Positions 23,964-29,443 of a stretch of 64,000 bases of DNA are shown in pieces; the first letter of the stretch is position 1; each line of letters starts with the position of its first letter. Below the pieces are notes generated by a model, which saw only the letters and a program-made list of their open reading frames with translations, did no database searches and was not told where the DNA came from. The translations under genes were made by a program, and so were the position numbers. Source of the DNA: Gemmatimonadota bacterium (GTDB lineage Bacteria > Gemmatimonadota > Gemmatimonadetes > Gemmatimonadales > Gemmatimonadaceae); the NCBI GenBank assembly GCA_025359135.1, contig JANYHJ010000003.1, positions 1 to 64,000 on the forward strand. Direction: 5' to 3'.

Positions 23964-25520
23964 CTACAACCCGTCGAGCAATCCGTCGTTGTTCGTCGTG
24001 TTCGCGATGCGCTTGATCAGCCACTCCATCGCGGCCTGCGGCGGCATCTGACCCAAGCCGCGGCGCAGCATGTGCACGTGTTCGAGCTGGTCGGGACGGA
24101 AGAGCTTGTCCTCGCGCCGCGTGCCGCTCGTCGCGACGTCGATCGCCGGGAAGATGCGCTTTTCCGCGAGCGAGCGATCGAGCTTGATCTCGCAGTTGCC
24201 GGTGCCCTTGAACTCCTCGAAGATCACGTCGTCCATGCGCGAGCCCGTTTCGACGAGCGCCGTCGCGATGATCGTGAGCGAGCCGCCGCCGTTCGCGTCC
24301 GCCACGGCACGCGCCGAGCCGAAGAACGCCTTCGGCTTGGACATCGCCGTCGCATCGAGGCCACCCGACATCGTGCGCCCGGTGCCGCGTTCGGCCGTGT
24401 TGTGGGCGCGCGCCATGCGCGTGAGTGAATCGAGCACGATGATCACGTCGCGGCCGAGCTCCACGAGGCGGCGCGCGCGCTCGAGCACCATCTCCGTGAC
24501 TTCGACGTGGCGCTTGGCGGGCTGGTCGAAGCTTGAGGCGATCACTTCTCCCACGTTCCACGAGATCGCCTCGCTCACTTCCTCTGGACGCTCGTCCACC
24601 AGCAGGATGAGCAGCACCGCCTCGGGGTGATTCATCGTGATCCCCTCGGTGATGGCGTGCATCAGCATGGTCTTGCCGGCACGCGCCGGCGCCACGATGA
24701 GCGCGCGCTGCCCGTAGCCGATCGGCGCAATCAGGTCGATCGCTCGGCGCGTGAGCTCGGGCCCGACCTTCGCAGGACGTCCCGTTTCGAGAATCAGCTT
24801 CCGGTCGGGATAGCTCGCCACGAGCGTCTGGAAGTCGGCGCGCTTGAGGCTCTCGCCGGGCTCCCGGTCGTTGATTGCGGTCACGTCCACCACCACCGTG
24901 CGGCCGCGGAAGTCGCGTCCGGTCGTGGCGGCAATCTTGTCGCTCTTGCGGAGCCCGAGCTGGCGTAGCTGCCACGCCGCAATCCACGGGTCCGTCGGTT
25001 CTGCGAGGTAGCTCGAACCCGCGCGGCGCACGAATCCGCCGTCACGCGAGGGGTCGAACCATCCGGTCACTTCGCCATCGGCGACGACCGGTTGCTGCTG
25101 CTGCTGGTTGTTGCCACCCTGCGGCTGTCCACCACCGCCTTGGCTCTGGTTCTCGCCGCCCTCACGACCTTGCCGGTCGCGGAAGCGTCCGCGTCGTCCG
25201 CGTCGTCCATTGCGACGTCCGCCGGCGCCCTGCTGCCACGGCGCGCCGCCCTGCTGTCCACCACCGCCACTTTGCGTGGGTGTCTCGCTGCGTGGAGCGC
25301 TGTCACCACCGCCTTCTCCACTCGCGGCCTCACTCGGAGCCGCTGGCGCGTCGGACGCGCCTCCATCGCCGTCGCTCACGGATGGCGATCCGCTGGATGA
25401 TGCGTCAGCATCATTCACCGGCGCGTCAGTGTCACGGTACGGGTTGTCCTGGTTGGCGTCACCCTCGGGGCGTTTGCCCGTGGTGCGCCGGCGACGATAG
25501 GGACGTCGACGTTCGGTCAT
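23964..25520 (-). CDS. rho: Transcription termination factor Rho with a long disordered N-terminus
   Basis: Rho is the hexameric RNA-dependent ATPase that ends transcription. The 518-residue protein has the primary RNA-binding cold-shock-like fold from about 149 (GEVTGWFDPSRDGGFVRR), Walker A APARAGKTMLMHAI, LLVDERPEEVSE, LDSLTRMARAHN with the Q/R-loop segment and a complete C-terminus ending NTTNNDGLLDGL. Residues 1-148 are an arginine-, glycine-, serine- and glutamine-rich tail, and I see no canonical N-terminal helix bundle. Long charged inserts are known in Rho of some phyla; here the insert replaces the N-domain. ATG 25520 is the natural start. Confidence 0.95.
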   Translation of the reverse strand: MTERRRPYRRRRTTGKRPEGDANQDNPYRDTDAPVNDADASSSGSPSVSDGDGGASDAPAAPSEAASGEGGGDSAPRSETPTQSGGGGQQGGAPWQQGAGGRRNGRRGRRGRFRDRQGREGGENQSQGGGGQPQGGNNQQQQQPVVADGEVTGWFDPSRDGGFVRRAGSSYLAEPTDPWIAAWQLRQLGLRKSDKIAATTGRDFRGRTVVVDVTAINDREPGESLKRADFQTLVASYPDRKLILETGRPAKVGPELTRRAIDLIAPIGYGQRALIVAPARAGKTMLMHAITEGITMNHPEAVLLILLVDERPEEVSEAISWNVGEVIASSFDQPAKRHVEVTEMVLERARRLVELGRDVIIVLDSLTRMARAHNTAERGTGRTMSGGLDATAMSKPKAFFGSARAVADANGGGSLTIIATALVETGSRMDDVIFEEFKGTGNCEIKLDRSLAEKRIFPAIDVATSGTRREDKLFRPDQLEHVHMLRRGLGQMPPQAAMEWLIKRIANTTNNDGLLDGL

Positions 25521-25931
25521 GTCTGGATGTGTCAGGTCAGGCGCGCCCCGGTCGGCCGGAATGGCCCCGGCGGGCGCGGTAAAACGATTGGAGTCTGTCC
25601 CGGTATCCACGCAGCTTCGTTCTCGTGCCTGGAGTGCCCAATCCGTTGGGCGGCACGAGTACGCTGATGGGCCGGGGGCCTTGGCACGCGCCGAAAGTGG
25701 CACGTCTCGAAATGGCGGTCGCGCGTGGGATACACACCAAGGCGACCCTTCACCGAGTGTACGAGGCCGGTCGATGGCGACCACTGCGCGGCGTACAGAA
25801 CGTTCGGTGAGTCCTTCGTACAACAAGGGACCATGGCCCCCCGCACGACCCTAATGTGGTGAGGCTCGTAAGCCCGCGCAACCCGTCGGGGACGATAGCT
25901 TCCGCCCTTCTTCGTCTTTTTCGCTCACGCT
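25521..25931. other. 411-bp divergent intergenic region between rho and a TPR gene
   Basis: This is the longest gene-free stretch of the window. It must hold the rho leader and promoter on the minus strand and the promoter of the TPR gene on the plus strand. Apart from the hairpin at 25622-25659 I see no recognisable RNA family, tRNA or convincing coding frame; the short open frames here have no start signals or family resemblance. Confidence 0.6.
25622..25659 (-). promoter_or_regulatory. Bulged hairpin in the rho leader
   Basis: CTCGTGCC and GCCCAA pair with TTGGGC and GGCACGAG around a TCCG loop, giving 14 perfect base pairs interrupted only by a 6-nt bulge (25630-25635). It lies about 100 nt upstream of the rho start codon. 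rho is autoregulated through its leader in several bacteria, so this may be part of such control; that function is inferred. Confidence 0.5.
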
Positions 25932-26519
25932 ATGTCGACTCAGGAACTCTCCCAGCACCTCGCCGCCGCGGTCACGACGTTCCGCGCCGAGGGCGACATG
26001 GGAGCCTTGCAGGAATCGCTCGCTCATCTCGTGCGTGATCATCCGGCCGCAGAACTCGCCGCCGCCGCAGAGCCGTACCGTACCATGCCAGAGGTCGCCG
26101 GCCCGATCTTCGAGAAGGTTGTGGAGGCGGACCCCGACAATGCACGAGCGCTCGTCGCGCTCGCCAACGCCTACTGGCTCGCTGGTCGCGGACCGGAGAA
26201 AGTCGGCGAGCTCGCCAGCCGCGCCATCGCCGCCGACCCCGAGAATCGGGCTGGCTGGCACCTCTGGTGCCTCTCCGAAAGCGACCCGCGCGAGCGCACC
26301 ATTCGCTGGCGCCAAGTCGTCGCGCGCTTCGCCGACGACGATCTGGCGCGCGCGACGCTGGCTGACAGCGCCGCCTCGCTTGCCGGCGCCGAGCGCGACC
26401 CGGATGCACTCGCGCTCGCCATAGGCGAGTACGAGATCCTGCGAGCGCGGGCGGCACGACCGGAGCAGCGCGAGGCACTCGACAAAGCGCTCATCACGCT
26501 ACGCGCCTGGTCGCTCTGA
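25932..26519 (+). CDS. Small TPR-like helical protein
   Basis: This 195-residue soluble protein is almost entirely alpha-helical. Residues 55-110 read as tetratricopeptide units: PIFEKVVEADPDNARALVAL followed by GELASRAIAADPENRAGWHL. There is no signal peptide, membrane span or catalytic motif. It begins a plus-strand group with a second, larger TPR protein 189 bp downstream. A scaffold role is all that can be suggested. Confidence 0.7.
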   Translation: MSTQELSQHLAAAVTTFRAEGDMGALQESLAHLVRDHPAAELAAAAEPYRTMPEVAGPIFEKVVEADPDNARALVALANAYWLAGRGPEKVGELASRAIAADPENRAGWHLWCLSESDPRERTIRWRQVVARFADDDLARATLADSAASLAGAERDPDALALAIGEYEILRARAARPEQREALDKALITLRAWSL

Positions 26520-26534: not shown

Positions 26535-26587
26535 CGGTATATCGGCACGCCCGTCACAAAAAGGGCGGTAATGTCGTGAACTAGCAC

Positions 26588-26596
26588 CAAAATGTC
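26588..26596 (+). promoter_or_regulatory. CAAAATGTC motif, copy 2
   Basis: The second copy lies about 110 bp upstream of the 408-residue TPR protein, in a 189-bp gap (26520-26708) that is distinctly richer in A and T than the flanking genes and probably holds that gene's promoter. Confidence 0.4.
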
Positions 26597-26708
26597 GCAA
26601 ACTCGCCCTCCGCGTAGGGATTGGCCTGCCGAGACTTGGTGAAGCGGGCGGCCAGTCCCGGGCGCCGCCCGTCAGACTCGTCCTGCCCGGACCGAGCGGC
26701 GAGAGCGC

Positions 26709-27935
26709 ATGAGACAACCTGAGCTTCTTCGTCACCAGGCCTTTTTTGACCGTCTGGCCGACCTGCAGGAGCAAGATCCGACCTGGCCCACCCTCTCGGC
26801 GGGCCTGCTGGTGTTACGCCAGCTGGACGACCGGCTGAGGGACGGCCTCCGTCCAGACCCCAGATCCACAGCCTTCACGCTCGACGCCGCGCGTGCTGTG
26901 CTCCTCACCGACCCCACACGCCGCATTCTCGTCGGTCTCGCCGAGTTGGCGGTCGAAGCCGAGCCGTCGCGACATGCGCTCGCCGTGCAGCTGTTCGCGT
27001 GGGCGCGTGCCCTCGAGAACAACGCTGCGTGGGCGCTGGCGCAGGATGTCTACCGCGCCGTCACGGAATTCATCCCCGCCGATGATGATCTCGAAATCGT
27101 CACCGACGCGTGGATGCGACGCGCGTACGTCGCCCGCATGATGGCGGCATACGCCGACGCCGAATTCGCCATTGAGCGCGGTCGGGAGTTCGCCGCGCGC
27201 CTGGGTGACGCGTCGCGCCTTCTGCGACTGCGCATGGCGAGCGCGAACGTGGCCGTCGATCGCCACCAGCCCGAGCTCGCCGAACACATCATCGCCGAGA
27301 CCGTGGCGCTGGCCGCGCCGCTCGGCGGACCGGTCTACAGCGAGGCACTGCATGGTCGCGGCAACGTGGCACGCATGCGCGGCGACAATATCAGTGCGCT
27401 GCAATTCTATCATCGAGCGCTCGAAGGCTCGCCGTCGGACATCGGACGCGAACGTCTGCTGCTGACGATCTCCGCGGTCAGCATCGACGTGGGTGCACGC
27501 AGCATGGCGCGTGATGCGCTGCTCGTTCTCGCGGTCACGGCGCAGACGCGCAACACGCGCTGGCTGGCCGTGGTCAACCTGCTCGAGATTGCCGTGCTCG
27601 ATCGCAACGAGATCAGCTTCGAGTCGTATCGTCGTGAACTCGCGGCCGAGCCGCTCAGTCCGATTGCGGCCGGCTACTTCGCACTGTACGAGGGCCACGG
27701 TCACCGTGCGTTCGGGCGGCCCGACCTCGCCGCGGCGTGTTATGAGCGGGCTCTCCAGAACGCACACGACCACCAACTTGGAAAGCTGGTGGTCGAAGCT
27801 GAAGCCGCTATGGCGGGCCTCAGTGAGTTGGACGAGATGCCTCGGCCAGGTGCCGAGTCGCCCGTTCCCAGTGCGCTGGAACCCTTGGCGCGCCGCGTGA
27901 GGGCGATGCGCGAGTGTCTGCCCGGTGAAGGGTGA
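26709..27935 (+). CDS. TPR-repeat protein
   Basis: This 408-residue soluble helical protein shows several tetratricopeptide-like units, including WALAQDVYRAVTEFIPADDD, YSEALHGRGNVARMRGDNIS with ALQFYHRALEGSPS, and GHGHRAFGRPDLAAACYERA. The N-terminal 100 residues resemble the start of transcription-regulator-associated TPR proteins, but no DNA-binding domain is visible. No signal peptide is present. It precedes a convergent micro-lipoprotein gene and a regulator gene, and shares an upstream motif with the regulator promoter. Its partner and role are unknown. Confidence 0.75.
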   Translation: MRQPELLRHQAFFDRLADLQEQDPTWPTLSAGLLVLRQLDDRLRDGLRPDPRSTAFTLDAARAVLLTDPTRRILVGLAELAVEAEPSRHALAVQLFAWARALENNAAWALAQDVYRAVTEFIPADDDLEIVTDAWMRRAYVARMMAAYADAEFAIERGREFAARLGDASRLLRLRMASANVAVDRHQPELAEHIIAETVALAAPLGGPVYSEALHGRGNVARMRGDNISALQFYHRALEGSPSDIGRERLLLTISAVSIDVGARSMARDALLVLAVTAQTRNTRWLAVVNLLEIAVLDRNEISFESYRRELAAEPLSPIAAGYFALYEGHGHRAFGRPDLAAACYERALQNAHDHQLGKLVVEAEAAMAGLSELDEMPRPGAESPVPSALEPLARRVRAMRECLPGEG

Positions 27936-27965: not shown

Positions 27966-28076
27966 TCAGTGGCCGTTGCTCTCCGTGACGCCGTCGTTGC
28001 GCGGAGCGGTCGGCGACGTGCAGGCGGCCATGGAAATGGTCGCGAGGGCGATCAGGGCAAGGGCGATGCGGCGCAT
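27966..28076 (-). CDS. 36-residue lipoprotein (micro-gene)
   Basis: The minus strand encodes MRRIALALIALATISMAAC followed by a 17-residue tail TSPTAPRNDGVTESNGH and TGA. It has a positive n-region, a hydrophobic core and a lipobox SMAAC, so it is a complete lipoprotein precursor. GAGG lies 5 bases before the ATG. It is divergent from the AraC-type regulator gene and convergent with the TPR gene. The mature peptide would be a short lipid-anchored tail; function unknown. It could be a chance frame, but the fit of the signal, lipobox and ribosome-binding site argues against that. Confidence 0.7.
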   Translation of the reverse strand: MRRIALALIALATISMAACTSPTAPRNDGVTESNGH

Positions 28077-28110
28077 GGAAGCCTCAGAGGTGGGGGGTGG
28101 GTTAACTCTG

Positions 28111-28187
28111 GACATGAATGTCTATTGTCTGCCCCCTGTCGGAAATGCGGCATTTGCGACAGAATGGTGCAGATTTCTGACATTTTG
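28111..28187. promoter_or_regulatory. Cluster of palindromes in the divergent regulator/lipoprotein promoter
   Basis: Three sites share the ATGTC/GACAT theme: GACATGAATGTC (28111-28122), the near-perfect inverted repeat GTCGGAAATGC / GCATTTGCGAC (28138-28160, one mismatch, 1-bp centre), and GACATTTTG (28179-28187). The stretch is A/T-rich for this genome and separates the micro-lipoprotein from the regulator. It is a good candidate for autoregulation by the AraC-type protein. Confidence 0.55.
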
Positions 28188-28198
28188 CATCTTTTCCA

Positions 28199-29017
28199 TT
28201 GCACGTTCTGGCCGTTTTGCCTCCTCCACAGCTCACGCACCTGCGCGCCGTGCTCGAACCGGCGCACCGGGTGACAGCGGTCGCCTCTTCGGTCGAAATG
28301 ACCGAGGTGGCCAGGCAGAAGGCGTTCGACGTCGTACTCATCGATCCGTCGATGAGCGCCCTCATCTCGGTCGCCGAGATCATCCGCTTCCGGCGTTCCT
28401 TCCCGTCGCTGCCCGTCATCCCGTACACGTCGATGTCAGCGTCGGCGATGCGCGCGATCGCGGAGCTTGCTCCGCACGGGATCTCGCGAGTGATCCTGCA
28501 TCGCGTCGACGACTCACCGCAGCGGTTACTCGACATGCTGCGGGCGCGGCCGACGGATGCGCTGACGCCGCGCGTCCTGCAGTTGCTCGATCCGGAGCTC
28601 TCCCGGCTCACGCAACGGGTGCGCGCTGGTGTGCTGCGACTCTTCGACGAACCACAAGCGTTCTACGGTGTGAGCGATCTGGCGCGAGCGGCGGGAGTGA
28701 ATCCTCGCACACTCTACCGGCAGTTCGAGACGGCCGGACTCGCGCCGGCGCGTCGCATGGTGCTGGGCGCGCGCCTCTTGCGCGCGTACGTCTGGTTACG
28801 CGATCCGGCCAACTCCGCGCAGGACGTCGTGCGGAAGTTGGGCTTCTCGTCCCGGCAGCAGTTCGGCCGGCAGCTCACCCGGGCCACGGGGGCGAGTCCG
28901 CGCGTCGTGCGCAGCCTCTCCTCGGACGACCTGATAGTGGAACGTCTTGTCGCGCTCATGCGCGACTCACCGGAGGGCGTGCAGGATGAGACGCCCGACG
29001 ACCCCAGCGAGAACTGA
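28199..29017 (+). CDS. Receiver-like plus AraC-type helix-turn-helix regulator
   Basis: This 272-residue protein starts from TTG. The N-terminal 120 residues resemble a response-regulator receiver fold: FDVVLIDPSMSALISVAEII at about 39-58 has the aspartate at the phosphorylation position, and LPVIPYTSMSASAM follows. The C-terminal part (about 160-245) is an AraC-type DNA-binding domain: YGVSDLARAAGVNPRTLYRQ as the first helix-turn-helix and SAQDVVRKLGFSSRQQFGRQ as the second. The typical acidic pair at the start of a receiver is missing, so it may be an unphosphorylated pseudo-receiver. It precedes a lone receiver gene by 3 bp. Confidence 0.8.
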   Translation: MHVLAVLPPPQLTHLRAVLEPAHRVTAVASSVEMTEVARQKAFDVVLIDPSMSALISVAEIIRFRRSFPSLPVIPYTSMSASAMRAIAELAPHGISRVILHRVDDSPQRLLDMLRARPTDALTPRVLQLLDPELSRLTQRVRAGVLRLFDEPQAFYGVSDLARAAGVNPRTLYRQFETAGLAPARRMVLGARLLRAYVWLRDPANSAQDVVRKLGFSSRQQFGRQLTRATGASPRVVRSLSSDDLIVERLVALMRDSPEGVQDETPDDPSEN

Positions 29018-29020
29018 ACC

Positions 29021-29443
29021 ATGGGCCGCATCCTTCCTCCAGCGCCGTCGTCGCTGATGCCGCGCTGCTTGATCGTGGACGACGAACCGGCCATCGGCCG
29101 CGCCCTCTCCCTCGCGCTCGCGCGGGACGGGTGGAGCTGCGTGCATGCGACCTCCGCCGAACAGGCGCAGGCGTGCCTGCGCGACCAGCCGTTCGATGCC
29201 ATGGTCGTCGACCTGCGCCTCAACGACATGCGCGGCGACGTCTTCCTGCACGTCGCCTGCGCACTGCAGCCGTCGCTCGCCAGCGCCACGCTCTTCATGA
29301 CGGGCGACATCAGCCCGAAGGCCGACGCGCTCCTCGCCGCGACGCGCTGCCCGGCCGTGCACAAGCCGTTCGATCTCTTCGAAGTCACCGCGCAGATGCG
29401 ACGCTTCCTGCCGCAGCGCAACACGGGCACCGCGACGGGCTGA
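29021..29443 (+). CDS. Stand-alone response-regulator receiver protein
   Basis: The 140-residue protein is a receiver domain with no output domain: CLIVDDEPAIGRALSLALAR (acidic pair), MVVDLRLNDMRGD (phospho-acceptor Asp), ATLFMTGDIS (conserved Thr) and VHKPFDLFEV (conserved Lys). The ATG at 29021 is 3 bp after the AraC-type gene, so they are co-transcribed; an internal ATG at 29057 would also give a complete domain. Such proteins act as phosphate relays or bind partners directly. The cognate kinase is not identified; the hybrid kinase at 36716 is a distant candidate. Confidence 0.88.
   Translation: MGRILPPAPSSLMPRCLIVDDEPAIGRALSLALARDGWSCVHATSAEQAQACLRDQPFDAMVVDLRLNDMRGDVFLHVACALQPSLASATLFMTGDISPKADALLAATRCPAVHKPFDLFEVTAQMRRFLPQRNTGTATG

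Follow-up and report, generated by a model that had tools for sequence, protein, structure and literature searches.

A conserved micro-lipoprotein gene with TPR and AraC-type partners in Gemmatimonadota, a candidate precursor of heptapeptide signals

Peptide quorum sensing in which cytosolic TPR proteins act as receptors has been described in Bacillota and their phages. Systems of this RRNPP type consist of a TPR receptor of 250–500 aa adjoining an exported propeptide of 10–100 aa, and the mature peptide of 5–10 aa is usually C-terminal and present in one to four repeats; the targets of Rap receptors are response regulators (PMC10075063; PMC11343458). By the published definition, the precursor gene is directly adjacent to the receptor gene (-60 to 400 bp), and the corresponding detector takes LIPO tags at its "relaxed" level only (PMC10075063). 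Lipoproteins are also the precursors of the enterococcal sex pheromones, e.g., cCF10, which are derived from the signal peptide (PMC7117660). Cell-cell signalling in Gemmatimonadota is essentially unknown, and the open literature yielded no earlier account of RRNPP systems or peptide quorum sensing in Gemmatimonadetes. Here, we analyzed a 64,000-nucleotide stretch of DNA from a Gemmatimonadota bacterium (the window), in which a very small lipoprotein gene lies between genes for a TPR protein and an AraC-type regulator (Table 1). Four of the five published RRNPP traits, namely a TPR receptor, its length, the adjacency and a small precursor, were found at this locus. The fifth, export by Sec and signal peptidase I, is replaced by a lipobox, which by sequence predicts signal peptidase II.

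Table 1. Features of the lipoprotein locus in the window.
Feature	Position	Strand	Remarks
Second operator-like site	26572..26601	-	One mismatch; ~107 bp upstream of the TPR gene
TPR protein, putative peptide receptor	26709..27935	+	408 aa, cytosolic; convergent with the lipoprotein gene; Pfam TPR
Micro-lipoprotein gene	27966..28076	-	36 aa, lipobox MAAC, Cys19; based on translation, relatives and purifying selection
C-terminal heptapeptide VTESNGH	27969..27989	-	Based on position and comparison with the repeat units of relatives
Shine-Dalgarno-like GAGG	28082..28085	-	5 bases before the ATG; based on sequence
Imperfect 25-bp palindrome TGTCGGAAATGCGGCATTTGCGACA	28137..28161		Overlaps the first half-site; based on sequence
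Direct-repeat operator (predicted) TTTGCGACA-N12-TTTCTGACA	28153..28182	+	21-bp period; between lipoprotein and regulator genes
AraC-family regulator	28199..29017	+	TTG start; N-terminal atypical receiver-like domain
Single-domain response regulator (receiver)	29021..29443	+	Response_reg E 8e-10

The micro-lipoprotein ORF is a real, conserved gene

Translation of the minus-strand ORF gave MRRIALALIALATISMAACTSPTAPRNDGVTESNGH, which confirmed the preliminary description of a 36-residue lipoprotein with the lipobox SMAAC and a 17-residue tail, and the GAGG motif was present where it had been placed. GGAG or GAGG is found at the same place in most of the relatives' lipoprotein genes. The gene had also been called too short for the usual gene callers, but this was overstated, as its 111 nt exceed the minimum gene length of Prodigal, 90 nt. 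The predicted product has the traits of a bacterial lipoprotein, i.e., a basic n-region, a hydrophobic core and a lipobox with the invariant Cys, and LspA is encoded in the genome. Its tail matched no Pfam or NCBIfam family over cut-off, and weak, sub-cutoff matches to LptM and lipoprotein models lay mostly over the signal peptide. No PADLOC model covers the lipoprotein, and a role in anti-phage defence was rejected for lack of a PADLOC match. A close paralog was not found elsewhere in the genome of the window.

Relatives were searched with the divergent AraC-type regulator as anchor. Regulator matches at E ≤ 1e-20 were present in 69 of the 179 genomes of the window's family, and at 68 of 81 regulator places, a divergent small lipoprotein ORF begins about 120–210 bp upstream. 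The lipoprotein was also present at 35 of 40 regulator places in two further families, one from the same order and one from elsewhere in the class. Next to regulator orthologs of four Gemmatimonadota families, lipoproteins of 36–86 aa were divergent and almost always present, and 132 tails were collected. The hosts are soil and groundwater Gemmatimonadota; the window genome is a Gemmatimonadota MAG, and its two genus mates are groundwater MAGs. A fixed ORF filter (ATG, Shine-Dalgarno motif, basic n-region, hydrophobic core, lipobox, 30–75 aa) was positive in 91 of 108 regions upstream of the regulator, compared to 3 of 2160 dinucleotide shuffles (0.14%) and, among other 400-base pieces taken from these loci, 6 of 4066 (0.15%). 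The dN/dS ratio (NG86) of the lipoprotein was 0.23 between the window and its genus mate G002 and 0.12–0.37 in five of the other six close pairs, with one pair near 0.8; by this measure, the lipoprotein is under purifying selection in close pairs. The preliminary description had made its case depend on conservation in sister genomes, and the frame, the lipobox, the tail motif and the divergent placement beside the AraC-type gene were indeed all kept, in the genus (G001 and G002), the family, another family of the same order and two additional families of the class. As judged by these comparisons, the ORF is a real and conserved gene.

Most other regulator places of the family without a scored lipoprotein are truncated by contig ends, were missed by the ORF filter or have an altered lipobox Cys. 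An apparent absence at three loci (L112, L114, L116) was rejected, as the lipoprotein is present there with a longer N-terminus and had been missed by the ORF filter. The lipobox is near-invariant across relatives, and its Cys was lost in one case seen (L091, Cys-to-Arg). At three further loci (L087, L227, L263), TPR and regulator genes were found with no lipoprotein ORF between them, and the TPR gene abuts the regulator gene in L087 and L227; in L087, the lipoprotein gene was lost. These three loci and L091 possibly represent losses or cheater-like states. L111, L121 and L122 contain the regulator but not the module. In the genera g9 (G045–G074) and g10 (G075), no regulator matched strongly (E ≤ 1e-20), and a TPR match at E ≤ 1e-50 was absent among the g9 and g10 genomes listed.

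Tail sequences and tandem heptapeptides

The tails follow a common pattern, C-x(2,4)-[TSV]-[AG]-P, then a linker that varies and a short end that is conserved. Further Cys residues come in pairs: exactly two are present in 90 of the 132 tails, none in 42 and a single one in 0 (L055 was counted by hand). In the more distant family f5, 13 of the 17 lipoproteins found end in tandem-repeat tails (HEPTAPEPTIDES), mostly of seven-residue units. The repeat tails of relatives comprise 2–8 near-identical heptapeptides whose codons differ synonymously. The f5 arrays include (HTLGSGN)6, (HTLGSGN)3, (GTLGSGN)8, (HTPDPGS)7 with one Y variant, (YTPDPGA)7, (HTPDSGS)2, (HNPDAGN)4, (YTPDGGN)4, (HGPDAGS)4, (HNPDSGN)3 and (HLPDSGT)3 plus HTPDPGT, among others. 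Over all pairs of repeat copies, 429 synonymous differences were counted versus 22 non-synonymous ones; the eight copies of GTLGSGN differ by 134 synonymous and 0 non-synonymous changes, and most arrays have 0 non-synonymous differences. The copies are thus old enough for silent drift and have been held identical as protein, and this codon comparison shows selection for exact heptapeptide units in the relatives. Metal binding by His residues of the repeat units was rejected, since the eightfold GTLGSGN array lacks His, and a copy number varying from 1 to 8 argues against a solenoid-type structural repeat.

The tails of family f2 end in ETQGSNN, present once to three times, or in a duplicated NWQGSGT or HQGSGT. 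Single-copy ends in family f1, e.g., VTVGSGG and VLVGSGN, resemble the f5 and f2 units, and the x-GS motif is enriched in f1 and f2 tails over shuffled tails. The end of the window's lipoprotein, VTESNGH, and that of G001, VTENTGN, have T2 and G6 in common with HTLGSGN. By its position and by comparison with the repeat units, VTESNGH is probably the counterpart of the tandem 7-mers of the relatives and, in the genus of the window, may be the functional unit. As it is present in a single copy, its role is argued from the homology of the module. Where several cassettes occur in one genome (four in one case), their tails differ, and orthologous cassettes of two genomes have matching tails, the tail type following TPR orthology. 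The loci L117 and L119, for example, have SDGVLVGSGN in common behind diverged linkers, and their TPR proteins are 78% identical.

A fixed three-gene module with a conserved operator

The lipoprotein and TPR genes are separated by about 30 bp, and their adjacency is conserved across loci. Wherever the lipoprotein locus is intact and the available sequence extends far enough, a TPR ortholog was found beside it, including at the extra cassettes within one genome, and strong TPR matches genome-wide fall largely in genomes carrying the regulator. The triad recurs in family f5, with E-values down to 4e-60 for the TPR profile and down to 2e-30 for the regulator profile. As judged by this synteny, the genes for the lipoprotein, the TPR protein and the AraC-type regulator form a fixed module. 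The pair of lipoprotein and AraC-type regulator proposed in the preliminary description thus stands, but its obligate third gene had been missed. Syntenic neighbours of the module in many of the family's genomes are rho and a second, small TPR gene, located at 23964–26519 in the window.

The AlphaFold (AF2) model of the TPR protein is a confidently predicted all-helical superhelix (pLDDT 94.4, pTM 0.88). The top TM-scores among the PDB hits listed by Foldseek were obtained for two receptors of peptide pheromones, NprR (5dbk, 0.55/0.62) and Rap (8rsv, 0.55/0.60); Foldseek E-values were better for generic TPR proteins such as LGN and designed TPRs, and TPR folds are generic. A profile search of PDB sequences for homology to RRNPPA receptors such as Rap, NprR, PlcR, Rgg, PrgX or AimR gave only other TPR proteins among the 60 matches listed.

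The regulator matched HTH_18 (PF12833), the double HTH of AraC/XylS regulators, over cut-off (E 2.2e-13), and its match to Response_reg was weak. In 27 aligned regulators, D49 is invariant and the acidic pair and the Lys are absent, so that these proteins depart from canonical response regulators, whose receivers combine an acidic pair, a phospho-Asp, a Thr/Ser and a Lys. The AF2 model (pLDDT 92.3) had receiver-type response regulators among its fold matches, and in this model the fold of the N-terminal domain is that of a receiver. The adjoining single-domain receiver gene is an accessory that is often present but that some module copies lack. Related receiver-AraC regulators also occur without an adjoining TPR or lipoprotein gene (L243, L244, L246, L253), and this type of regulator is therefore wider than the module.

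Paired TTTNNGNCA half-sites exactly 21 bp apart were found between the lipoprotein and regulator genes in 80 of 105 loci, with a value of 0.0 for shuffles, and comparison across these loci shows that the predicted operator is conserved. The site in the window is the only exact match to TTTNNGNCA-N12-TTTNNGNCA in the whole window genome (G000). The second operator-like site, before the TPR gene, is oriented to its target in the same way as the site at the lipoprotein. Several genera have related sites about 100–130 bp ahead of the TPR gene, with 11 of the 13 best sites inverted, and four genomes of one genus have a second exact match, which in L061 lies upstream of the TPR gene. The positions of these sites point to a local regulon that would comprise the genes for the lipoprotein, the TPR protein and, judging by location, the regulator itself. 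A regulon search with a period of 20, which served as negative control, gave only scattered matches at chance level. The 21-bp operator is absent from the f5 loci. At the f5 loci L296–L314, GGGTATGTCTTTTTCGAAGATcATG is instead conserved at the start of the regulator, and in some of them CTTGAACTTTCGAA is conserved upstream, which suggests a different binding site in this family.

The divergent promoter had been described as full of palindromes. A 25-bp palindrome is indeed present, but the element conserved in the family is the direct repeat. The palindrome occurs in the window and G002 and is degenerate in G001; being imperfect and weak beyond the window and G002, it was rejected as the key promoter element. 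A scan for sigma70 and terminator consensus sequences gave nothing useful.

Proposed function and comparison with known systems

The properties of the cassette suggest a previously unrecognised peptide-signalling system. We slightly favour a function of the lipoprotein as an exported precursor of a heptapeptide signal, which would be sensed by the TPR protein and drive an autoregulated AraC circuit. Sec and signal peptidase II would turn the ORF product into a lipoprotein whose active unit would be the C-terminal seven or so residues, VTESNGH in the window and one to eight tandem 7-mers in relatives. This unit would be released or displayed outside the cytoplasm, re-enter the cell, e.g., through an Opp-type importer, and bind to the neighbouring cytosolic TPR protein, which in turn would control the AraC-type regulator through its receiver-like domain. 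This last step would parallel the action of Rap proteins on response regulators (PMC11343458). Binding of the regulator to the direct repeat in the intergenic region and to the related site before the TPR gene would close an autoregulated peptide circuit. We infer the processing, uptake, TPR–peptide binding, TPR–regulator contact and regulator–operator binding, as well as the sign of regulation. Three LspA matches (C155:12413-13379, C173:13507-13932), two of them in tandem, and three OppA-type (SBP_bac_5) proteins are encoded in the window genome, which makes the processing and import steps possible. Release and re-import of a peptide would be complicated by the lipid anchor and by the outer membrane. 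The generic nature of TPR folds, the Cys pairs in two thirds of the tails and the absence of the 21-bp operator from the f5 loci also speak against the model. For the earlier idea that tiny lipoproteins can act as signals, the tandem heptapeptides and the TPR neighbour provide strong, indirect support.

The near-invariant lipobox, with the Cys lost only in L091 among the cases seen, would also fit a lipid-anchored ligand that stays uncleaved and is displayed in the envelope for an envelope partner, the TPR protein and the regulator merely setting its expression. Exact tandem units agree with multivalent binding as well as with processing, and Cys residues that occur as a pair or not at all fit a disulfide-closed loop outside the cytoplasm. 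However, no conserved gene for an envelope protein adjoins the module, and the sole constant partner is a cytosolic protein with a fold of the peptide-binding type, so that we consider such a ligand rather unlikely. The lipoprotein may also be an adapter, the other option of the preliminary description, or more generally a small envelope effector, comparable to LptM or entericidin, under the control of a cytosolic stress sensor formed by the TPR protein and the AraC-type regulator. Small lipoproteins of similar size with such roles exist, and the sub-cutoff LptM and lipoprotein-model matches point in the same direction. Against this, the tail itself has no family match over cut-off, an adapter surface would not be expected to consist of exactly repeated 7-mers, most arrays of which show 0 non-synonymous changes, and several cassettes with different tails occur per genome; we regard an effector or adapter role as clearly improbable. 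Multi-copy cores also occur in some RiPPs, but a multi-core, RiPP-like precursor, with the tail serving as an antimicrobial or as a core peptide that is modified, is very improbable, as no modification enzyme or transporter recurs among the commonest neighbours, the leader is of the lipoprotein type and the gene is tightly coupled to a TPR protein and a transcriptional regulator. A chance ORF, for which the short length would speak, can practically be dismissed in view of the filter counts in real and shuffled regions, the dN/dS values below 1 and the conservation in four families.

We see an even chance of class-wide peptide signalling in Gemmatimonadota, of a kind not described from diderm bacteria, with lipoprotein-borne heptapeptides in one to eight exact copies per precursor, a cytosolic TPR receptor that reads them and acts on an AraC-type regulator with a pseudo-receiver, and several mutually distinct cassettes per genome. 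If true, peptide communication of the TPR type would be extended to a poorly cultured diderm phylum, lipoproteins would serve as carriers for multi-copy signal peptides, and an ORF of 36 aa may be a key piece of a system that family databases miss. HTLGSGN, GTLGSGN, HTPDPGS and ETQGSNN, for example, would then be ready test peptides for the phylum.

Several known systems have individual features in common with the module. LptM/YifL and the entericidins are likewise small and carry a lipobox, but the module's tail differs by having no family match, by its tandem heptapeptides and by the fixed TPR and AraC-type partners. The divergent promoter, a direct-repeat operator spanning two turns and the geometry of autoregulation are as in divergent pairs of AraC-type regulators and their targets, whereas a receiver-like N-terminal domain and a micro-lipoprotein and a TPR gene as targets are not typical of such pairs. 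The enterococcal pheromones resemble the proposed signal in lipoprotein biogenesis (Lgt, signal peptidase II) and in a length of about seven residues; however, they are the signal-peptide end of a larger lipoprotein and their receptor gene is on a plasmid, whereas the module's conserved or repeated unit lies in the tail after the lipobox and its TPR gene is adjacent. With RRNPPA systems, especially Bacillus Rap-Phr, the module has in common a TPR protein of about 400 aa adjoining a small exported precursor with a C-terminal unit of about seven residues, tandem identical units, a partner of the response-regulator type and several cassettes per genome. In contrast to Rap-Phr, which belongs to Bacillota and uses a signal peptidase I precursor, it occurs in diderm Gemmatimonadota with a predicted signal peptidase II lipoprotein as precursor. 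Up to eight repeat copies occur instead of the one to four of RRNPPA, two thirds of the tails contain a Cys pair unlike the known linear pheromones, and the TPR protein lacks an HTH, a separate AraC-type regulator with an atypical receiver being present instead. By analogy, the module probably works like RRNPPA systems, and we do not file it as a member of that family.
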